DNA from: Streptomyces afghaniensis 772
GTDB taxonomy: Bacteria; Actinomycetota; Actinomycetes; Streptomycetales; Streptomycetaceae
DNA: 32,750 nt
Assembly (NCBI GenBank): GCA_000415505.1
Contig: KE354297.1
Coordinates: 1 to 32,750 of the forward strand
Direction: 5' to 3'
Shown here: positions 3,666 through 21,277 of the stretch, one piece after another
Layout: each line of letters opens with the position of its first letter
Position numbering within the stretch: the first letter of the stretch is position 1
The notes under the pieces: model-generated
What the model saw: only the letters and a program-made list of their open reading frames with translations
What the model was told of the DNA's origin: nothing
Database searches by the model: none
Program-made: the position numbers and the translations under genes

Positions 3666-4391
3666 GTGAGCAAGCGCAGCAAGTCCCTTCGCGCTGCGGA
3701 CGCCAAGATCGACCGGGAGAAGCTCTACGCCCCGCTCGAGGCCGTCCGTCTCGCCAAGGAGACCTCCACGACCAAGTTCGACGGCACCGTCGAGGTCGCC
3801 TTCCGTCTGGGTGTCGACCCGCGCAAGGCCGACCAGATGGTCCGTGGCACCGTGAACCTCCCGCACGGCACCGGTAAGACCGCCCGGGTCCTGGTCTTCG
3901 CGACCGGCGACCGTGCCGAGGCCGCGCGTGCCGCGGGCGCCGACATCGTCGGCGCCGACGAGCTGATCGACGAGGTGTCGAAGGGCCGTCTGGACTTCGA
4001 CGCCGTCGTCGCCACCCCGGACCTCATGGGCAAGGTCGGCCGCCTCGGCCGTGTGCTCGGTCCGCGTGGTCTGATGCCGAACCCGAAGACGGGCACCGTG
4101 ACCCCGGACGTGGCCAAGGCCGTGACCGAGATCAAGGGCGGCAAGATCGAGTTCCGTGTGGACAAGCACGCGAACCTGCACTTCATCATCGGCAAGTCGT
4201 CCTTCGACGACACCAAGCTGGTGGAGAACTACGGCGCCGCGCTGGAGGAGATCCTCCGTCTGAAGCCGTCCGCCGCCAAGGGCCGGTACATCAAGAAGGC
4301 CGCCATCACCACCACGATGGGCCCCGGCATCCCGGTCGACCCGAACCGCACCCGCAACCTCCTCGTCGAGGAGGACCCGGCCGCGGTCTGA
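3666..4391 (+). CDS. rplA: 50S ribosomal protein L1
   Basis: L1-stalk protein of the large subunit, and in many bacteria the translational repressor of its own rplKA mRNA. The protein is 241 residues with a GTG start 5 nt after AGGAG. The L1 signature is present around [20 protein letters not shown], followed by [20 protein letters not shown]. Third-position choice with many CGT/GGT codons fits a highly expressed gene. It is the second gene of rplKA and is closed by a strong terminator. Confidence 0.97.
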
Positions 4392-4417
4392 GCCTGACAG
4401 CTCACGCAACCGGTCAC

Positions 4418-4458
4418 GGGCCCCGCACCTCTCACAGGTGCGGGGCCCGTTCCCTTTT
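4418..4458 (+). terminator. Intrinsic terminator after rplA
   Basis: A perfect 13-bp stem (GGGCCCCGCACCT at 4418-4430 with AGGTGCGGGGCCC at 4436-4448) encloses a 5-nt loop and is followed by the T-rich GTTCCCTTTT. It separates rplKA from the lipoprotein genes. Confidence 0.88.
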
Positions 4459-4519
4459 CCGGTACGTACGCCGGTGGCCTGGGTTAACGTGCGGGAACCG
4501 GATGCGAACGGGGGGACGT

Positions 4520-5377
4520 ATGCAGGGCAGGACCGTGCGCAGCGTGGGCCTGGTGCTCGCGGTGGCGAGCGCGCTGACGGGGGTGGCCGCCTGCACCTCC
4601 GCGGACTCCTCCGACGGCCCCCGCAAGGACGACCGCGCCGCCCACGGCCGGTCCGTCGCGGCCCTGCGCTCCGCCGAGCGCGCCACCGAGCGGGCCGGAT
4701 CGGCCCGGGTCGAGTCCACGACGACCATGGGCTCGCTGATGTCCATGACCGCCGACGGCACCCTCGGCTGGGGCGACGGCATCACCGGCACCCTGAGCAT
4801 CACGTACACCGGCGGCGCCCTGGCCGACACGATGCGCAGGCTCGGCAGCACCTCCATGGAGGCCCGCTACCTGCCCGACGCCTACTACGCGCGCATGGGC
4901 GAAAAGTTCGCCGAGCAGGCCGGCGGCAAGCACTGGATCCGGTACGCCTACGAGGACCTGAAGGCCCTCGCCGGGGGTTCCGGAGCCCATCTCGGCGACC
5001 AGATGCGCAGCACCACACCGAACCAGTCCGTGAAGCTCCTGCTGGCCTCCGGGGACGTCAGGAAGGCCGGCGAGGAGTCCGTGCGCGGCCGGCGCGCCAC
5101 GCACTACTCCGGCACCGTGGCCGCCGCGGACGTCACCGACGCCGCCCTGAAGAAGCAGCTCACGGAGGCCGGTGTCACCACCGAGACCGTCGACATCTGG
5201 ATCGACGAGCGGAACCTGCTGGTCAAGAAGGTGGAGAAGGCGCGGATGAGCACGGGCCTGATGACCCAGACCGCGCACTACGGCGACTACGGAGTGCGGG
5301 TCCGGGCCGAGCGGCCCCCGGTGTCCGACACCGGGGACTTCGAGGACCTGATGCGGAAGAAGGCGGGTACGCCCTGA
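4520..5377 (+). CDS. Putative LolA/LppX-like lipoprotein
   Basis: Predicted secreted lipoprotein of 285 residues. ATG 4520 is preferred because GGGGGGA lies just upstream; an in-frame ATG at 4502 would add 6 residues. The signal peptide (VRSVGLVLAVASALTG) ends in the lipobox GVAAC, with the Cys predicted to be lipidated. The mature part has the alternating pattern of a LolA/LppX-type half-barrel: a dummy-substrate core (STTTMGSLMSMTADGTLGWG), VRGRRATHYSGTV, and DIWIDERNLLVKKVE. Its ligand is unknown. A paralogue follows 93 bp downstream. Streptomyces genomes commonly carry such a pair between rplA and rplJ, so it belongs to the conserved block and not to the antibiotic cluster. Confidence 0.85.
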   Translation: MQGRTVRSVGLVLAVASALTGVAACTSADSSDGPRKDDRAAHGRSVAALRSAERATERAGSARVESTTTMGSLMSMTADGTLGWGDGITGTLSITYTGGALADTMRRLGSTSMEARYLPDAYYARMGEKFAEQAGGKHWIRYAYEDLKALAGGSGAHLGDQMRSTTPNQSVKLLLASGDVRKAGEESVRGRRATHYSGTVAAADVTDAALKKQLTEAGVTTETVDIWIDERNLLVKKVEKARMSTGLMTQTAHYGDYGVRVRAERPPVSDTGDFEDLMRKKAGTP

Positions 5378-5470
5378 GCTCCCCGTGAATCCGCATAGAT
5401 CACTTGTGCCCCTCTGGGATAGGCTCACGGCCTTGCTGTGAAGCAACCACGCATTCCTTGGGGGGAATCA

Positions 5471-6298
5471 ATGAAGACATCCATACCTGTCGCCGGGCTG
5501 GGTGCCCTGCTGCTCGCCGCCGGCGCGGTCGGCTGCGGTTCGGAGCAGTCGCCGGAGATGACGCCCGCGGCCGCCGTCGCCAAGGCGGCGAAGAACACGG
5601 AGGACATCACGTCCCTCCGCTACCGCATGAGCGGCACCGTGCCGGAGTCGGGCCAGGTCAAGGGTGAGGCGTCGATGCGCCTGAAGCCCACGATCGCCAT
5701 GAGCATGAAGATGACGGCGCCCGCCCAGGGAGCCACCGAGGCCGTGGAGATCCGCCTCGTCGACAAGGCCATGTACATCGGTGGGGGAGCCGAGATGGCC
5801 AAGGAGATGGACGGCAAGACCTGGATGAAGTTCGACCTGTCCGGGTCCGACGCGGGCAAGGACCTGGACAAACTGGGGTCCACCAGCCAGGCCGAGCAGA
5901 ACCCGGCGGCGGAGTCCACCTTCCTCACGGGCGCCAAGGACGTGAAGAAGGTCGGCTCCGAGAAGGTCGAGGGCGTCGAGACGACCCACTACACGGGCAC
6001 CGTCACGCTCAAGGACCTCCGCGCGTCCCTCAAGGACGGCAAGGCGGACACCCGCGAGCAGCGGGAGAAGAGCATCAAGCAGTACGAGAAGCTGGGCGTC
6101 GACAAGCTCACGATGGACATGTGGGTCGACGGCGACGACCACACCAAGCAGTTCCGGATGAAGGGCGACGCCGACAAGGGCCCGCTCGACATGACCATCA
6201 CTTTCCTCGACTACAACAAGCCGGTGAACGTCACGGCCCCGCCGGCCAAGGACGTCGCCGACCTCGCCGACCTGTTCAAGGAACTCGACGCGAGCTGA
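5471..6298 (+). CDS. Putative LolA/LppX-like lipoprotein (paralogue)
   Basis: 275 residues; ATG 5471 follows GGGGGGAA by a few bases. The signal peptide [22 protein letters not shown] contains lipobox AVGC. The mature region has [37 protein letters not shown] and [18 protein letters not shown], the same three-part pattern as the upstream gene, so the two are paralogues. The fold suggests a hydrophobic-ligand carrier on the outer face of the membrane; that is inferred from the family, and no ligand can be named. It ends just before the rplJ promoter and leader. Confidence 0.85.
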
Positions 6299-6316
6299 TC
6301 CGTCGTACGGGCGGAT

Positions 6317-6346
6317 TTGCTTGACGGCGATCCGTTCCCGTACTCT
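6317..6346 (+). promoter_or_regulatory. Candidate promoter of rplJ-rplL
   Basis: TTGCTT (6317-6322) and TACTCT (6341-6346) are separated by 18 bp, a plausible HrdB promoter about 250 bp upstream of rplJ. This would give the long leader that L10 operons normally have. Confidence 0.5.
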
Positions 6347-6593
6347 CCTACAGAAGCCAAAGACCGCTGGTCGTTTACCGCGCGCTCGGACGAGGGCGCG
6401 GTGGCCGAAGGATCCGCTGAACGGCGGACGGCCCGCGCAGGTGACACTTGGAGAAGCTCCCGTAGTCCGCCGCCCCGTGCGTGCGTGCAAGCGGTCGAGC
6501 TGCGCCCCGTGCCCCTGTGCCGGGGCGTTTCGTTTTCCCCAGTCCTCCTTCGGGTCCGCGCGGTCCGAATCACCCGGAAGGAGGCCGAGGCTC
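6347..6593 (+). ncRNA. L10 leader (5' autoregulatory mRNA element)
   Basis: About 240 nt of conserved-looking, structured, non-coding sequence separates the candidate promoter from rplJ. In bacteria this position holds the L10 leader, bound by the L10-(L7/L12) complex to repress its own operon. I assign it by position, length and the terminator-like hairpin at its end (6503-6536), not by alignment. An Rfam search with the L10 leader model would decide it. Confidence 0.6.
6503..6536 (+). terminator. Attenuator-type hairpin in the rplJ leader
   Basis: CGCCCCG (6503-6509) pairs with CGGGGCG (6521-6527) around an 11-nt loop and is followed by TTTCGTTTT. It lies 57 nt before the rplJ start, so it would terminate the leader transcript unless antiterminated. 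It probably works as the attenuator of the L10 leader. Confidence 0.6.
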
Positions 6594-7124
6594 ATGGCGA
6601 GGCCTGACAAGGTCGATGCCGTCGAGGAGATGCGGGACAAGTTCCGCGACTCCAACGGCGCTGTCGTTACTGCGTACACCGGTCTCACCGTGGCGCAGCT
6701 GCAGCAGCTGCGTCGTTCACTCGGTGAGAACGCTCATTACCGTGTGGCGAAGAACACGCTGACCAAGATTGCGGCCAACGAGGCCGGGATCACCGCGATC
6801 GACGACCTCTTCACGGGTTCGTCGGCCGTCGCCTTCGTGACCGGTGACCCGGTCGAGGCGGCGAAGGGTCTCCGTGACTTCGCCAAGGACAACCCCAACC
6901 TGGTCATCAAGGGCGGCGTCCTTGACGGCAAGGCGTTGTCCGCCGATGAGATCAAGAAGCTTGCGGACCTCGAGTCCCGCGAGGTTCTGCTCTCCAAGCT
7001 GGCCGGTGCCATGAAGGGCAAGCAGTCCCAGGCTGCCTCTGTCTTCCAGGCGCTGCCGTCGAAGCTCGTCCGCACCGTGGACGCGCTCCGTGCCAAGCAG
7101 GACGAGCAGGGCGGTGCCGAGTAA
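6594..7124 (+). CDS. rplJ: 50S ribosomal protein L10
   Basis: Base of the ribosomal stalk; its C-terminal helix carries L7/L12 dimers. The protein is 176 residues. ATG 6594 follows a strong GGAAGGAGG (6577-6585). The sequence shows the L10 core ([43 protein letters not shown]) and the C-terminal stalk helix ([17 protein letters not shown]). It is cotranscribed with rplL 115 bp downstream. Confidence 0.97.
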
Positions 7125-7239
7125 CTCGGCTCGCATCCCGGCCCCCGCTGCCTGAACGCGGAGGCCGTCGCGGGCCAGTAGTACGCCCGCCTCACATGTA
7201 CATCCGGCACCTGCCGATTTAGTGGAAGGACCGCCAATC

Positions 7240-7629
7240 ATGGCGAAGCTCAGCCAGGAAGACCTGCTCGCGCAGTTCGAGGAGATGACCCTCATCGAGC
7301 TCTCCGAGTTCGTGAAGGCGTTCGAGGAGAAGTTCGACGTCACCGCCGCCGCGGCCGCCCCGGTCGTCATGGCCGGTGGCGCCGGTGGCGCCGCCGCCGC
7401 CGAGGCCGAGCCGGAGAAGGACGAGTTCGACGTCATCCTCACCGGTGCCGGCGACAAGAAGATCCAGGTCATCAAGGTCGTGCGTGAGCTGACCTCCCTG
7501 GGCCTGAAGGAGGCCAAGGACCTGGTCGACGGTGCGCCGAAGCCGGTTCTGGAGAAGGTCAACAAGGAGGCCGCCGACAAGGCCAAGGAGTCCCTCGAGG
7601 GCGCCGGTGCCTCCGTCGAGGTCAAGTAA
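7240..7629 (+). CDS. rplL: 50S ribosomal protein L7/L12
   Basis: Multicopy stalk protein that recruits and activates translational GTPases. The protein is 129 residues. ATG 7240 gives the expected N terminus [20 protein letters not shown], with GGAAGGA upstream. The N-terminal dimerisation helices are followed by an Ala/Gly-rich hinge (residues about 35-55) and the C-terminal domain ([38 protein letters not shown]). It is intact and of normal length. Confidence 0.97.
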
Positions 7630-7690
7630 GACCTCCCGGATCCGCCAGGATCCACGACACGTCCCGCTGGGCGTGTAACGCGTAAGCGCG

Positions 7691-7733
7691 GAAGAGCGAT
7701 CATCCATCCGGGTGGTCGCTCTTCGGCGTTTCC
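7691..7733 (+). terminator. Terminator/attenuator between rplL and rpoB
   Basis: A 14-bp stem (7691-7704 with 7711-7724, two G-U pairs) encloses loop CATCCG and is followed by CGGCGTTTCC. The position fits a partial terminator that keeps rplL mRNA more abundant than rpoBC mRNA. Confidence 0.7.
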
Positions 7734-7975
7734 GGGGTCCGGCCACGGTTGCCTTGCACCCTCTGTGGCGGGGGGTATGGTGATCTTCGTCGTGTCTCTG
7801 GGCGGGGCCCCGGTTCGGGCAGGGGGGCCTTGACGAACCGCACGCAGCGCGCAATTCTCAGGACGCGTCGTCACAAGGATCCGAATCCGAGGTATGGATC
7901 GGCGACGAAGAGGGCAGTATCAACGTGCGTTGAGGGCAGCGCCTTGTCGCAGGAGTGGAACAACGAGGGTCAACA

Positions 7976-8023
7976 CGGGTTTCACAACCCGGACTGGACA
8001 TCAGTGTGCCAAGTGGCTACACT
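7976..8023 (+). promoter_or_regulatory. Candidate rpoBC promoter with upstream inverted repeat
   Basis: TGGACA (7995-8000) and TACACT (8018-8023) are separated by exactly 17 bp, close to the HrdB consensus. It would give an RNA leader of about 175 nt before the rpoB TTG start. Just upstream of the -35, CGGGTT-TCAC-AACCCG (7976-7991) is a perfect 6-bp inverted repeat. The rest of the 575-bp gap between rplL and rpoB (7630-8204) shows only the rplL terminator and no credible gene. Confidence 0.6.
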
Positions 8024-8204
8024 GACCCTTTGCGCTGCCTGTTAGCTGTCCCCTGCCCGTCACCAGGGGTCTGCCCTCGCCCGAGCATCGACGACAAGAG
8101 CTGTCTGACCTGGCCTTTAGGCCGGACCGACGCAGCTTGTCTCTGTGTACGGGAGAGGGGCCGGTACGCGCGTAGTGAGTCCGAGCCCTCGGAAGGACCC
8201 CCTC

Positions 8205-11200
8205 TTGGCCGCCTCGCGCAACGCCTCGACCGCGAATACGAACAACGCCGCCAGCACTGCCCCGCTGCGCATCTCTTTTGCAAAGATCAAGGAGCCTCTC
8301 GAGGTTCCGAACCTGCTCGCGCTGCAGACCGAGAGCTTCGACTGGCTGCTCGGCAACACCGCCTGGCAGAGTCGGGTCGAGGAGGCTCTCGAGAACGGTC
8401 AGGACGTCCCCACCAAGTCCGGGCTCGAGGAGATCTTCGAGGAGATCTCCCCGATCGAGGACTTCAGCGGGTCGATGTCGCTGACCTTCCGCGACCACCG
8501 CTTCGAGCCGCCGAAGAACTCGATCGACGAGTGCAAGGAGCGCGACTTCACGTACGCGGCCCCGCTCTTCGTCACCGCCGAGTTCACCAACAACGAGACC
8601 GGTGAGATCAAGTCTCAGACGGTCTTCATGGGCGACTTCCCGCTCATGACGAACAAGGGCACCTTCGTCATCAACGGCACCGAGCGTGTCGTGGTGTCGC
8701 AGCTCGTCCGTTCGCCCGGCGTCTACTTCGACTCCTCCATCGACAAGACGTCCGACAAGGACATCTTCTCCGCGAAGATCATCCCGTCCCGGGGTGCCTG
8801 GCTGGAGATGGAGATCGACAAGCGCGACATGGTCGGTGTCCGCATCGACCGCAAGCGCAAGCAGTCCGTCACCGTCCTGCTCAAGGCGCTCGGCTGGACC
8901 ACCGAGCAGATCCTCGAGGAGTTCGGCGAGTACGAGTCCATGCGCGCCACCCTGGAGAAGGACCACACCCAGGGCCAGGACGACGCGCTGCTCGACATCT
9001 ACCGCAAGCTGCGCCCGGGCGAGCCCCCCACGCGTGAGGCCGCGCAGACGCTGCTCGAGAACCTCTACTTCAACCCCAAGCGCTACGACCTGGCCAAGGT
9101 CGGCCGTTACAAGGTCAACAAGAAGCTGGGTACGGACACCCCGCTGGACGCCGGGATCCTGACCGTCGAGGACATCATCGCGACGATCAAGTACCTGGTG
9201 AAGCTGCACGCCGGCGAGACCGAGACGGTCGGTGACAACGGCACGTCCGTGGTCGTCGAGACCGACGACATCGACCACTTCGGCAACCGCCGCCTGCGCA
9301 GCGTCGGCGAGCTCATCCAGAACCAGGTCCGTACGGGTCTGGCGCGTATGGAGCGTGTCGTCCGCGAGCGGATGACGACCCAGGACGTCGAGGCGATCAC
9401 GCCGCAGACCCTGATCAACATCCGGCCGGTCGTCGCCTCCATCAAGGAGTTCTTCGGCACCAGCCAGCTGTCCCAGTTCATGGACCAGAACAACCCGCTG
9501 TCGGGTCTGACGCACAAGCGGCGTCTTTCCGCGCTCGGCCCGGGTGGTCTGTCCCGTGAGCGGGCCGGCTTCGAGGTCCGTGACGTGCACCCCTCGCACT
9601 ACGGCCGCATGTGCCCGATCGAGACCCCTGAAGGCCCGAACATCGGTCTGATCGGCTCGCTCGCCACCTATGGTCGTGTGAACGCGTTCGGTTTCGTCGA
9701 GACCCCGTACCGCAAGGTGTTCGAGGGCCAGGTCACCGACCAGGTCGACTACCTCACGGCCGACGAGGAGGACCGCTTCGTCATCGCGCAGGCCAACGCG
9801 CCGCTGACGGACGACCTCCGCTTCGCCGAGGCCCGCGTGCTGGTCCGCCGTAAGGGCGGCGAGGTCGACTACGTCGGCCCCGAGGACGTGGACTACATGG
9901 ACGTCTCGCCGCGCCAGATGGTGTCGGTCGCGACCGCCATGATCCCCTTCCTGGAGCACGACGACGCCAACCGTGCCCTCATGGGCGCGAACATGATGCG
10001 CCAGGCCGTTCCGCTGATCCAGGCGGAGTCCCCGCTCGTCGGCACCGGCATGGAGTACCGCTCCGCGGTCGACGCCGGCGACGTGGTCAAGGCCGAGAAG
10101 GCCGGTGTGGTCCAGGAGGTCTCCGCGGACTACATCACCACCGCCAACGACGACGGCACGTACATCACGTACCGCCTGGCCAAGTTCGCCCGCTCCAACC
10201 AGGGCACCTCGGTCAACCAGAAGGTCATCGTGGCCGAGGGCGACCGGATCATCGAGGGCCAGGTCCTCGCCGACGGTCCGGCCACCCAGCGGGGCGAGAT
10301 GGCGCTGGGCAAGAACCTGCTCGTGGCGTTCATGCCGTGGGAGGGTCACAACTACGAGGACGCGATCATCCTGTCGCAGCGCCTCGTGCAGGACGACGTC
10401 CTCTCCTCGATCCACATCGAGGAGCACGAGGTCGACGCCCGTGACACCAAGCTCGGCCCCGAGGAGATCACCCGGGACATCCCGAACGTCTCCGAGGAGG
10501 TCCTCGCCGACCTCGACGAGCGCGGCATCATCCGTATCGGTGCCGAGGTCATCGCCGGTGACATCCTCGTCGGCAAGGTCACGCCCAAGGGTGAGACCGA
10601 GCTGACGCCCGAGGAGCGCCTGCTGCGCGCGATCTTCGGTGAGAAGGCCCGTGAGGTCCGTGACACCTCGCTGAAGGTGCCGCACGGCGAGACCGGCAAG
10701 GTCATCGGTGTGCGCGTCTTCGACCGCGAGGAGGGCGACGAGCTTCCCCCCGGTGTGAACCAGCTGGTGCGCGTCTACGTCGCGCAGAAGCGCAAGATCA
10801 CCGACGGTGACAAGCTCGCCGGCCGTCACGGCAACAAGGGCGTCATCTCGAAGATCCTGCCGATCGAGGACATGCCGTTCCTGGAGGACGGCACCCCGGT
10901 CGACATCATCCTCAACCCGCTCGGTGTCCCGTCCCGAATGAACCCGGGACAGGTGCTGGAGATCCACCTCGGCTGGCTCGCCAGCCAGGGCTGGGACGTC
11001 TCCGGTCTCGCCGACGAGTGGGCGCAGCGTCTCCAGGCCATCGACGCCGACCAGGTCCCGCCGCGGACCAACGTCGCGACGCCGGTCTTCGACGGTGCCC
11101 GCGAGGACGAGCTGGCCGGTCTGCTGGAGCACACCATCCCGAACCGCGACGGCGAGCGCATGGTGCTCCCGTCCGGCAAGGCGCGGCTGTTCGACGGCCG

Positions 11201-11690
11201 CTCCGGTGAGCCGTTCCCGGAGCCGATCTCGGTCGGCTACATGTACATCCTCAAGCTGCACCACCTGGTCGACGACAAGCTGCACGCCCGTTCGACCGGC
11301 CCCTACTCGATGATCACCCAGCAGCCGCTGGGTGGTAAGGCCCAGTTCGGTGGCCAGCGCTTCGGTGAGATGGAGGTGTGGGCGCTGGAGGCTTACGGCG
11401 CCGCGTACGCCCTCCAGGAGCTGCTGACCATCAAGTCCGACGACGTGACCGGCCGCGTGAAGGTCTACGAGGCCATCGTCAAGGGCGAGAACATCCCCGA
11501 GCCCGGCATCCCCGAGTCCTTCAAGGTGCTCATCAAGGAGATGCAGTCTCTCTGCCTGAACGTGGAGGTGCTGTCCAGCGACGGTATGTCCATCGAGATG
11601 CGTGACACCGACGAGGACGTCTTCCGCGCTGCGGAGGAGCTCGGCATCGACCTGTCCCGGCGCGAGCCGAGCAGCGTCGAAGAGGTCTGA
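8205..11690 (+). CDS. rpoB: DNA-directed RNA polymerase subunit beta
   Basis: Catalytic subunit of RNA polymerase. I choose the TTG at 8205 because GGAAGGA (8191-8197) sits 7 nt upstream and it gives 1161 residues starting [13 protein letters not shown], the usual Streptomyces RpoB length; a longer reading frame from 8145 lacks such support. The rifampicin pocket (residues about 419-450, [34 protein letters not shown]) has the wild-type D, S, H, R and S residues. Other core motifs are present: [15 protein letters not shown], the active-site lysine region [13 protein letters not shown], and the C-terminal [14 protein letters not shown]. Intact. Confidence 0.98.
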
Positions 11691-11697
11691 CGGGAGT

Positions 11698-11729
11698 CCG
11701 GCGGGCCTTGGGAGACCAAGGCCCGCCGG
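11698..11729 (+). terminator. Perfect hairpin between rpoB and rpoC
   Basis: CCGGCGGGCCTTGG (11698-11711) pairs over all 14 bp with 11716-11729 around a GAGA (GNRA-type) tetraloop. No T-run follows, so it is more likely an mRNA processing or stability element of the rpoBC transcript than a full terminator. Confidence 0.55.
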
Positions 11730-11786
11730 CCCCAGGACCCCCGTATCAGACCAAAGACTTACAACCCTGAGAGGGATTGACGCATA

Positions 11787-15686
<3,900 letters not shown>

Positions 15687-15701
15687 GCGAGCAGCCATGT
15701 G

Positions 15702-15739
15702 AAGGGCGGCCATCCCTCGGTGAGGGGTGGCCGCCCTTT
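15702..15739. terminator. Bidirectional terminator between rpoC and nosP
   Basis: A 16-bp stem (15702-15717 with 15723-15738, one G-U pair) starts with AA and ends with TTT. It therefore has a short U-run for rpoC transcripts and a weaker one for the converging nosP transcript. It marks the junction between the conserved block and the nos cluster. Confidence 0.8.
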
Positions 15740-15749
15740 GGCGTACAGG

Positions 15750-16577
15750 TCAGAAGGTGGAGACGTCCCAGGTGACGTTGAGCTCGCTGAGCCCGTGGTC
15801 CGAGAGCAGCATGGAGCGCTGTAGGCGCCTGAGCGCCGGCGAGGGTTCGAGGCCCAGTTCGGTGACCAGAGTGGCGCGCATGCGCTGGTAGACGTCCAGG
15901 GCTTCCGATCGGCGCCCCGAGCGGTACAGCGCGAGCATCAGATGCGCGCACAGGCCTTCATGGGTCGGGTGCTGCGCAATGATGCTCCGCAGCTCGCTGA
16001 GCAGCTCGTGGTGCCTGCCCAGGCGAAGGTCGGATTCGATTCTGCGGTCCAGGCAGTTGAGCCGGGCTTCCTCTATCCTCTCCACCTCCCGTTGCAATCG
16101 GGGGCCGGCCTGCACGTCCGCCAGGGCCTGGCCGCGGCAGAGCCCCAGCGCCTGCGCGAAATTCTCCGATGCGGCCTCGAAATCGCCCTTCTCCCTGGCC
16201 CGGTGGCCGGCCGCGGCCAGTTGCTCGAAGTTGTCCAGCACGACTCGCCCGACGGGGGCCCGCAGGAGGTAGCCGCCGGGCAGGGTGACCAGGATGTCCT
16301 TGGCCCCGGGCGTCTTGGCGGGACAGCCGTCGGGATCCCTTCCGGCGGCCGTGGCGATGTTCTTACGCAGATGCAGGATGTAACTCTGCATCGCTGTCTT
16401 GGCGCTGGCAGGCTTCTTCTCCGTCGACCACAGTTCGTCCATCAGGGACGCGAGAGGGACGAACTGGTTGGCCTGCACGGCAAGCATGGCCAGCACGGTC
16501 CGCGGTTTGGCGGCCGTCGGTACGATCGAAGCGGTTTGCTGTGAGACCGCGAGCGGTCCCAGTACATCGACCTCCAT
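15750..16577 (-). CDS. nosP: SARP-family pathway activator NosP
   Basis: Transcription activator of the Streptomyces antibiotic regulatory protein family, 275 residues. It starts at ATG 16577 with GGGGGA upstream. Residues 1-95 form an OmpR-type winged helix (MEVDVLGPLAVSQ start; LAMLAVQANQFVPLASLMDELW; HLRKNIA). Residues about 100-250 form the bacterial transcriptional activation domain (LDNFEQLAAAGHRAREKGDF, LMLALYRSGRRSEALDVYQRMRATLVTELGLEPSPALRRLQ). It is the only regulator visible in the cluster and probably binds the 11-bp-period CGCT array between nosM and nosL. I found no in-frame TTA codon, so direct bldA control is not indicated for this gene. Confidence 0.93.
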   Translation of the reverse strand: MEVDVLGPLAVSQQTASIVPTAAKPRTVLAMLAVQANQFVPLASLMDELWSTEKKPASAKTAMQSYILHLRKNIATAAGRDPDGCPAKTPGAKDILVTLPGGYLLRAPVGRVVLDNFEQLAAAGHRAREKGDFEAASENFAQALGLCRGQALADVQAGPRLQREVERIEEARLNCLDRRIESDLRLGRHHELLSELRSIIAQHPTHEGLCAHLMLALYRSGRRSEALDVYQRMRATLVTELGLEPSPALRRLQRSMLLSDHGLSELNVTWDVSTF

Positions 16578-19644: not shown

Positions 19645-19797
19645 TCAGGAGGAGCAGGAGCAGCAGCACTCACAGGTGGTGCAGGAGGCCGACATGACCT
19701 TGGCCACGACCTCGCTGTCCTCGAGGCGGCTGTCGTCCAGGAACTCGGAGATCTCAAGGGCGTCGACGTCCAGCTCGGACAGGTGCACAGCGTCCAC
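19645..19797 (-). CDS. nosM: NosM, nosiheptide precursor peptide
   Basis: 50-residue ribosomal precursor. GTG 19797 is chosen because AAAGGAG (19810-19804) is 6 nt upstream and it gives the expected length; a longer frame to 19848 has no ribosome-binding site. The leader is residues 1-37, acidic and helical (ELDVDALEISEFLDD, DSEVVAKVMSA). The core is residues 38-50, SCTTCECCCSCSS, identical to the nosiheptide core. Its five core Cys besides the indole-bearing one, its Ser and Thr residues and Glu43 match thiazoles, dehydroamino acids, the pyridine and the side-ring ester. Cys45 would carry the indolic acid. It lies alone before tandem hairpins and divergent from nosL. Confidence 0.98.
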   Translation of the reverse strand: MDAVHLSELDVDALEISEFLDDSRLEDSEVVAKVMSASCTTCECCCSCSS

Positions 19798-19830
19798 TGG
19801 AGGCTCCTTTCGTTTCCGGTGAAATGTAGA

Positions 19831-19846
19831 GCGCAATTTTTTGCGC
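19831..19846. repeat. Perfect inverted repeat in the nosM 5' leader
   Basis: GCGCAA-TTTT-TTGCGC is a perfect 6-bp stem with a 4-nt loop, about 34 bp upstream of the nosM start and inside its predicted untranslated leader. It could be an RNA hairpin that stabilises the message or an operator for a second regulator; the sequence does not decide between them. Confidence 0.5.
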
Positions 19847-19890
19847 ACGACTCGGAGGCTATGCGGGTTGGTTTGTCGGCGTCAAGGAAC

Positions 19891-19899
19891 AAGATATTC
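19891..19899 (-). promoter_or_regulatory. Candidate -10 region of the nosM promoter
   Basis: On the minus strand GAATAT (19899-19894) lies 8 bp beyond the last repeat of the CGCT array, and TATCTT (19896-19891) lies 11 bp beyond it. SARP-dependent promoters typically lack a good -35 and have the nearest repeat about 8 bp before the -10. Transcription would start near 19,885, giving a leader of about 85-90 nt. Confidence 0.5.
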
Positions 19900-19907
19900 A
19901 ATTTTCC

Positions 19908-19969
19908 CGCTGCCTTCTCGCTGTGTTGCCGCTAAATCACCGCTAAAGTCGCGCTCAAACGCTGCTGTA
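19908..19969. promoter_or_regulatory. 11-bp-period direct repeat array, putative NosP (SARP) operator
   Basis: CGCT occurs at 19908, 19919, 19930, 19941 and 19952, exactly 11 bp apart, followed by TGCT at 19963 in the same phase. The heptamers are CGCTGCC, CGCTGTG, CGCTAAA, CGCTAAA, CGCTCAA and TGCTGTA. On the minus strand the best units read TTTAGCG, TTTAGCG and TTGAGCG, close to the TCGAGCG-type SARP heptamer, pointing towards nosM. Spacing by one helical turn is the hallmark of SARP binding. The array sits in the divergent nosM/nosL region, so one activator could serve both sides. Confidence 0.75.
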
Positions 19970-20018
19970 CTGCTGGTGTGTTTTCGTCATGGAGTCGGGG
20001 TTCTGGTTTTCCTCTTCC

Positions 20019-20048
20019 TTGTTCCCGCTGCTTTGCGGCAGATATAAA
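20019..20048 (+). promoter_or_regulatory. Candidate promoter of the nosL operon
   Basis: TATAAA (20043-20048) is a strong -10 for this genome, with TTGTTC (20019-20024) 18 bp upstream. It would start RNA near 20,055, about 35 nt before nosL. It lies about 55 bp downstream of the 11-bp repeat array. Confidence 0.5.
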
Positions 20049-20089
20049 TTCAGCGTCTCTTCCGGAGTCCACCGCAGGGAGATCTTCGT

Positions 20090-21277
20090 ATGACGCAGAG
20101 CCCAGAAGCAGTTGCCGGCGACTTCACGCTCCCGGAACTGGAGGACGTACGACGCGAGGCCGCCAAGGTCGACACCCATGCCGTTCTGGCGCTTCCGGAG
20201 AGCGAGGAGCCGGCCTGGTCCAGGGAGGCGATGGCCCTGGCGCTGTGGGAGGACCGGTCGATCAGCACCGAGGAGCTGAAGGCCGCCGCCGAGGCCCGGT
20301 GCGCCGCCCGCACGCCCCGCCTGCACACCTTCGTGCCGCTCTACACGACCAACTACTGCGACTCCGAGTGCAAGATGTGCTCCATGCGGAAGGGCAACCT
20401 CCGCCTCGACCGCAAGTTCTCCGGCCGCAAGGAGATCACCGCACAGCTGGAGATCCTCTACCACCACGAGGGCGTCCGCGGAGTCGGCTTCCTCACCGGC
20501 GAGTACGAGGACAAGCACACCCGGCTCAGCTCGGCCTTCCGGATCGGCTGGGCCATCCGCACCGCCCTCGACATGGGCTACGAGCGGGTCTACTTCAACA
20601 TCGGCAGCATGGAGCCGGACGAGATCGACGTCCTCGGCGAGTGGATCGGCCACGAGGAACCGGTCACCATGTGCGTCTTCCAGGAGAGCTACGACAAGGA
20701 GACCTACGGCCGGTTCATGGGCCAGACCTCCGCCCAGGTCCCCAAGGCGAACTTCGACCGCCGGGTGGTCTCCTTCGACCGCTGGCTCGACGCGGGCTTC
20801 CGGTACGTCAACCCCGGCGTGCTGGTGGGCCTGCACGACGACCTCTCCGCCGAGATCGTCAGCCTGGTCTCCCACGGCGCGCACCTGCGGGCCCGGGGTG
20901 CGGTCGTCGACCTGTCGGTGCCCCGGATGCGCCCCGCGATGACGTCACGGGACACCACCCGGGTCAACGACGACGACTACCTGCGGATGATGTCGGCGGT
21001 CGCCTTCACCTGCCCCGAGCAGCGGCTGGTCCTCACCACCCGGGAACCGCAGGAGTTCCAGGACGTGGCGATGGGCCTGGCCGGGGTGATCTCGCCCGGC
21101 AGCCCCGACGTCGCCCCCTACCGACCGGACTCCCGCGCCCGTAACGACGAGGCCAGCTCGCAGTTCCTGGTGGCGGACCTGCGCAGGCCACGACACATCC
21201 TGAGCCGTATCGAAGCGGGGGGACGCCCGGTCGAACACTTCGTGGACCCGTCCTCGTCGGCTCCCACGGCGGGCTGA
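20090..21277 (+). CDS. nosL: NosL, radical SAM L-tryptophan lyase forming 3-methyl-2-indolic acid
   Basis: 395 residues; ATG 20090 follows AGGGAG (20076-20081). The radical SAM motif C90-DSE-C94-KM-C97 lies in FVPLYTTNYCDSECKMCSMR, in the ThiH/HydG-like subgroup of tryptophan lyases. The barrel contains GVRGVGFLTGEYEDKHTR, RVYFNIGSMEPDEIDVLG, the segment CVFQESYDKETYGRFMGQ and the C-terminal RMRPAMTSRDTTRVNDDDY, where known NosL binds the Trp carboxylate. The enzyme cleaves and rearranges L-Trp with SAM to give 3-methyl-2-indolic acid, the side-ring unit of nosiheptide. It is the first gene of the plus-strand operon. Confidence 0.96.
   Translation: MTQSPEAVAGDFTLPELEDVRREAAKVDTHAVLALPESEEPAWSREAMALALWEDRSISTEELKAAAEARCAARTPRLHTFVPLYTTNYCDSECKMCSMRKGNLRLDRKFSGRKEITAQLEILYHHEGVRGVGFLTGEYEDKHTRLSSAFRIGWAIRTALDMGYERVYFNIGSMEPDEIDVLGEWIGHEEPVTMCVFQESYDKETYGRFMGQTSAQVPKANFDRRVVSFDRWLDAGFRYVNPGVLVGLHDDLSAEIVSLVSHGAHLRARGAVVDLSVPRMRPAMTSRDTTRVNDDDYLRMMSAVAFTCPEQRLVLTTREPQEFQDVAMGLAGVISPGSPDVAPYRPDSRARNDEASSQFLVADLRRPRHILSRIEAGGRPVEHFVDPSSSAPTAG

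Follow-up and report, generated by a model that had tools for sequence, protein, structure and literature searches.

The nosM-nosL intergenic region and its repeat array

The DNA analysed here, which we call the window, is a stretch of 32,750 nucleotides that carries a nosiheptide-type gene cluster in two divergent halves. The minus-strand half contains nosM (19645..19797), which has a GTG start and encodes the precursor peptide with the core SCTTCECCCSCSS, a HemN-like radical SAM gene, and nosP (15750..16577); the plus-strand half opens with nosL (20090..21277), the gene for 3-methyl-2-indolic acid synthase, which matches TIGR04158 above the cut-off. The nos names follow those of the nosiheptide pathway. 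NosP is a small SARP activator with a BTAD domain and has the AfsR chains as its best solved relatives (E 3.5e-32); the same genome holds seven further SARP-like matches at 1e-20. NosP is described in a review as activating the biosynthetic genes by binding intergenic sequence and as responding to nosiheptide and an intermediate (PMC10972967), and deletion of nosP is reported to silence the biosynthetic genes and to raise the activity of nosP's own promoter (PMC11632069).

The cluster directly adjoins rplA, rpoB and rpoC (window 3666-15750), with 63 bp separating the end of the rpoC frame from that of nosP. The same pairing of rpoC and nosP is seen in S. griseosporeus (L005, L009) and in S. 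sp. XM83C (L010); the remaining NosP loci that were tested, most with flanks of no more than 1.5 kb, did not show rpoC. Between rplA and rpoB, at 4502-6298 on the plus strand, lie two neighbouring frames with matches to LppX/LprAFG lipoproteins, the first below and the second above the Pfam cut-off.

Between the divergent halves of the cluster, with nosM on the minus-strand side and nosL on the plus-strand side, lies an array of six 8-bp units at an 11-bp pitch, one turn of the helix (19908..19970, minus strand), which is probably the operator of NosP. Read on the plus strand, the units are CGCTGCCT, CGCTGTGT, CGCTAAAT, CGCTAAAG, CGCTCAAA and TGCTGTAC. The exact 11-bp ladder described in the initial annotation is real: CGCT stands at 19908, 19919, 19930, 19941 and 19952 and TGCT at 19963, with one further CGCT at 19960 out of phase. 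On the minus strand the units read towards nosM as heptamers of the TTTAGCG type, and the two heptamers singled out earlier, TTTGAGCG and TTTAGCG, were both found; they are close to TCGAGCG, a heptamer of known SARP sites, and may be of the same kind. When any tetramer repeated at a constant interval of 5-20 was allowed, the observed ladder of five compared with a maximum of four, reached in 4 of 3000, among dinucleotide shuffles of 19799-20089; none of the 3000 shuffles gave five.

A search for four CGCT tetramers at this pitch (CGCT-N7 x4) gave two overlapping matches in the 9,848,108 bases of the strain's own genome, both of which are this array, and the reversed control gave none in the same 9.85 Mb. 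Among 238 Streptomyces genomes the pattern was matched in 64, the strain's own included, many of the matches being perfect tandem repeats, and the reversed control likewise matched many. These counts mean that the pattern alone is not diagnostic in Streptomyces, and that the place and the conservation of the array carry the weight. Within the window no other 11-bp array scored above 14, the best array at another period reaching 16.1; the absence of a second comparable 11-bp array agrees with one operator serving two divergent operons.

An alignment of 46 units from 10 loci, in which L029 and L030 were omitted and only two L004 units were used, shows a unit of eight informative positions followed by three free ones: columns 1-8 hold 0.42-1.52 bits, a range flattered by the choice of units that fitted, and columns 9-11 hold 0.06-0.14 bits.

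Arrays of the same pitch also occur away from the nos region. Among eight stretches with NosP paralogues, L052 and L055 carry three 11-bp units each, scoring 19.1 apiece against 18.1 for the best match at another period. The units of L052 (10764-10805, Streptomyces sp. XM83C) are of the CGCT type and occupy a divergent intergenic region, with a NosP paralogue of 54% identity encoded about 3 kb away; the reverse reading contains TTCGAGCG, close to the classical SARP heptamer, and the site is a candidate for an ordinary three-unit operator. A possible second array in the Micromonospora locus L003 (407-447; GAACACAG, CGTTAAAA, CGCTCAAA, AGCTTCAG), with units opposite in orientation to those of the nosM array, has its end 27 bp upstream of TTGACA-17-TAGACT, a pattern that precedes genes for methyltransferase and glycosyltransferase; its score of 18.1 is near that of other-period matches (18.5 in L004). 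A recurrent four-unit array of the CGCTNACG type is found at about 1500-1545 in L064, L087 and L088, from several Streptomyces; in L064 and L088 it lies close to the 3' terminus of a flavohaemoglobin-like gene. L067 and L086 show other rows of four units. No second nos-like array was seen in the 13 inspected of 29 new CGCT x4 loci from the 238 Streptomyces genomes.

Conservation of the 11-bp phase in related clusters

Eleven distinct NosL clusters besides that of the window were obtained and all were analysed. They came from five loci in named genomes and from searches of sets of 392, 396, 390, 354 and 199 genomes. Two are from Streptomyces (L002, L005), one from Actinokineospora (L004) and two from the family of the latter (L029, L030); the others are from Actinoplanes (L006), from Micromonospora (L003) and from the family of L006 (L036, L032, L033, L034). 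In the 392 Streptomyces genomes, the 396 genomes of the phylum and the 199 genomes near L005, NosL was found only in the strain's own genome and in that of L005, and plasmid searches found nothing.

A matrix built from the six units of the window alone and run between the nosM -35 and nosL selects 11 as the best of the periods 8-15 in nine of the eleven relatives, with p values against shuffles of 0.0005 (L002, L005, L006, L036, L033), 0.0010 (L034), 0.0020 (L003), 0.0025 (L004) and 0.0035 (L032). No such result was obtained for L029 (p 0.22) or L030 (p 0.06). A de novo test that uses no matrix, applied to the window and to the relatives except L032 and L034, gives period 11 as best at four, five and six units in the window, L002, L005, L004, L006 and L036 (p <=0.003), and also in L029, where it is significant at five units (p 0.005) and at six (p 0.001). 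In L003 it favours period 12 at four and five units, with period 11 best only at six (p 0.02), and in L033 it prefers period 10. The de novo test lacks specificity when taken by itself, as it gave a 12-bp periodicity (p 0.01 at four and five units) in L030, which served as a negative. The initial annotation had named loss of the 11-bp phase in related clusters as an outcome that would count against it; the phase is kept, in nine of the eleven relatives by the matrix and in a tenth, L029, de novo.

The length and quality of the row differ between clusters. Counted by eye, L006 has five units, S. griseosporeus has about nine and L029 has up to about eleven phased positions; only two or three units are clear in L004. 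The L029 units, such as CGGAGAAC and TTGAGAAC, occupy about eleven phased 11-bp turns upstream of the nosM -35, several of them poor by eye; the array has drifted in sequence and kept its pitch.

The array and a NosP orthologue occur together. Orthologues of 51-77% identity are present in the ten relative genomes that have an array; the genome of the eleventh (G794, with L030), the only such case among the eleven, has no NosP orthologue at E 1e-50, and its nosM-nosL region shows no 11-bp array by matrix or de novo. In the NosP set the residue that matches AfsR R92, in an alignment made by eye, is H in the window, L009, L010 and L012, S in L011, L013 and L046, G in L047-L049, and Q in L050, the orthologue from the L029 genome (G786), as well as in the paralogue L014. 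Coevolution of the NosP recognition helix with the drifted L029 units was considered and set aside, the changes at this position being too few for a call.

Promoters on either side of the array and alternative readings

The nosM side carries a complete promoter on the minus strand, with a -35 of TTGACG (19880..19885) and a -10 of TAGCCT (19856..19861), and a predicted start near 19849. The underlying pattern, TTGACN-18-TANNNT, was first spotted by eye and then tested; it is present in 11 of 11 NosP clusters, ending 48-65 nt before the nosM codon that was searched, one codon downstream of the actual nosM start codon in the window, L002 and L005. In L030 the match lies 155 nt away and may be due to chance. 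The nosM promoter is near consensus and might fire without NosP. Because this conserved pair of elements lies further downstream, the array does not cover the -35 but stops 22 bp above it in the window, and 33-37 bp above it typically in the relatives. The intervening 22 bp (19886..19907) are 68% A+T in the window; a role for them as a general UP element was rejected, as A+T richness is not conserved in the relatives.

The distance from the start of the array to the nosM -35, 22 bp in the window with the second unit at 33, is 34 bp in L002, L005, L003, L032, L033 and L034 and 35 bp in L006 and L036, so that the window and these eight relatives all have a unit 33-35 bp above the -35. L002 and L005 have an additional unit at 23 bp, weak in L002; the best array of L004 lies at 46 bp, with a poor unit at 35, and that of L029 at 37 bp. 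Taken modulo 11, the gap of the best array is 1 or 2 in all nine matrix-positive relatives, 0 in the window and 4 in L029. Pooled over six lineages, the phases are moderately concentrated (Rayleigh test: nosM p 0.022, nosL p 0.061; registers and lineage pooling assigned by us).

On the other side a weaker pattern, TTGNNN-18-TANNNN, provides a candidate nosL promoter on the plus strand, with a -35 of TTGTTC (20019..20024) and a -10 of TATAAA (20043..20048). By raw count the pattern occurs exactly once in 9 of 12 intergenic regions (window, L002, L005, L004, L006, L036, L032, L033 and L034) and is absent from those of L029, L003 and L030; L029 has a version with a 17-bp spacer. On the nosL side the array lies 5 bp from the promoter in L006 and L036, 48 bp in the window and more elsewhere. 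Thus the distance to nosL varies widely and that to nosM is nearly fixed, which indicates that the array keeps its place relative to nosM. We also considered CGCTGCTT at 20026, 9 bp before TATAAA, as a canonical SARP site for nosL, and rejected it, as by eye the relatives are without it.

The initial annotation had read GAATAT (19899-19894, minus strand) as a SARP-type -10 that lies 8 bp from the nearest unit. In such a canonical promoter NosP would take the place of a -35 and the transcript would begin near 19887. The distance of 8 bp holds exactly in this strain and agrees with the rule given for SARPs, in which the 3' repeat is 8 bp from the -10 (PMC10936776). The relatives do not share this geometry, however: with two or three units tried in each, none of ten has TANNNT at 7-9 bp from the array, which rules out GAATAT as a generally conserved -10. 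The weak form NANNNT, the only one that GAATAT itself passes, is found at these distances in 6 of 10 relatives, about the level of chance given up to nine places tried; two of these, L006 and L036 (AAAAAT), have it at exactly 8 bp, measured one repeat below the first unit. With a full -35/-10 pair conserved elsewhere in 11 of 11 clusters, we regard a canonical promoter at this site as unlikely. The earlier reading is thus retained for a multi-unit SARP-type operator, most likely that of NosP, to which the phase and the distance to nosM kept in the relatives point, and is not supported for GAATAT as a -10 in canonical geometry.

Another regulator with an OmpR-type domain could occupy the array, with NosP acting elsewhere in the region. 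The seven further SARP-like proteins of the genome provide candidates, as do response regulators such as PhoP, since response regulators of the OmpR-type fold also use 11-bp direct repeats. Against this, array and NosP orthologue co-occur in ten relatives while the eleventh has neither, and no array elsewhere in the window rises above the noise seen at other periods; we consider this reading somewhat less probable still than the canonical promoter. Less probable again is a primary action of NosP at nosL, with the row as an upstream nosL operator and a constitutive nosM promoter. The recurrence of the weaker nosL pattern in 9 of 12 regions and the 5 bp between row and nosL promoter in L006 and L036 speak in its favour, but the contrast between the variable nosL and the nearly fixed nosM distance does not, nor does the loss of all biosynthetic transcripts without NosP that reviews report (PMC11632069). 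That the array is a chance or slipped tandem repeat with no regulatory role can be practically dismissed: 11-bp CGCT tandem repeats do exist in other Streptomyces genomes, but the units here share eight positions and not the other three, and their phase is conserved in distant clusters.

A model of NosP action and its relation to known systems

We propose, with a probability of about two in three, that the array is a NosP operator which holds six protomers and activates nosM and the divergent nosL promoter from upstream in class I fashion. Each 11-bp unit would bind one NosP protomer, with eight bases contacted and three free, and six NosP molecules would therefore form a row along a single face of the DNA; we infer that they bind cooperatively. 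Counted from the predicted nosM start, the row spans about -59 to -121. It lies upstream of the complete promoter TTGACG-18-TAGCCT, at a nearly constant distance from the -35 and probably in a nearly constant register to it. From such a position upstream of a complete promoter, NosP would recruit RNA polymerase in the class I manner, through contact with the C-terminal domain of the alpha subunit. At the divergent nosL promoter it would act from the other end of the array, at about -92 to -147; activation of nosL from this far side is possible. A more far-reaching version, which we offer tentatively and consider doubtful, treats NosP as a filament of about five to eleven protomers on the upstream array, its length dependent on the species, which recruits polymerase class I to both divergent promoters and is disassembled by nosiheptide and peptide ligands, with the number of units setting the steepness of feedback.

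SARPs frequently serve as activators of antibiotic clusters. In the accepted picture of SARP action two or three repeats lie over the -35, and a review gives two or three as the usual number of units (PMC10972967). As the initial annotation had pointed out, a row of five or six units exceeds this number, and the nos array differs from the standard operator both in having more units and in lying upstream of an intact promoter, the position having a precedent in PimR. The open-licence literature searched names no six-unit SARP operator; the nos repeats, their number or the promoters may already be in the original NosP paper (Li et al. 2018). If the proposed operator is correct, a small SARP can also be a class I activator. 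Cooperativity and ligand feedback could be measured across the relatives, whose arrays form a natural length series, and the promoter map for nosiheptide-type clusters would be useful for expressing silent ones.

A comparable row is known outside the SARPs: six OmpR molecules are reportedly aligned at ompF, which resembles the proposed arrangement in having six proteins of the OmpR fold in tandem upstream of a promoter. OmpR differs from NosP in being a response regulator with another recognition sequence, and not a SARP. The proposed arrangement also agrees with the published account of NosP, in which the protein binds intergenic sequence and is controlled by nosiheptide and an intermediate (PMC10972967, PMC6930871, PMC11632069).

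The closest parallel in position is PimR at pimM of Streptomyces natalensis, where 11-bp direct SARP repeats likewise lie in a divergent intergenic region (PMC3367932) and upstream of the -35 with no overlap, the main triplet 55 nt and a weak doublet 18 bp above it (PMC3367932, PMC5930380). Class I activation was proposed there, and an upstream site was described by the authors as having no precedent among SARPs (PMC3367932). PimR is, however, a large SARP-LAL that recognizes CGGCAAG heptamers in a 3+2 arrangement with the doublet at a 10-bp pitch (PMC3367932, PMC5930380), whereas the small SARP NosP has a single continuous row of six CGCTAAAG-type units and a near-consensus -35 in its promoter. 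PimR gel shifts are reported to agree with a stoichiometry of one monomer to each heptamer and a required minimum of two heptamers; a triplet with one extra heptamer gave no gain in production, and two triplets raised pimM transcription almost five-fold (PMC5930380). The extra heptamer without benefit argues against a general gain from additional units.

The units themselves are closest to the AfsR box at afsS of Streptomyces coelicolor, where the homologous AfsR contacts the first 8 bp of each 11-bp direct repeat, leaves the last 3 free and binds as side-by-side protomers, as we propose for NosP (PMC10936776). The AfsR box has two repeats centred at -29.5 that overlap the -35, and sigma R4 docks on the SARP (PMC10936776); the nos array has six repeats upstream of an intact -35. 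The nos array combines AfsR-like units with a PimR-like place in a longer row, and we consider it most probable that NosP protomers in a row recruit polymerase in the class I manner.
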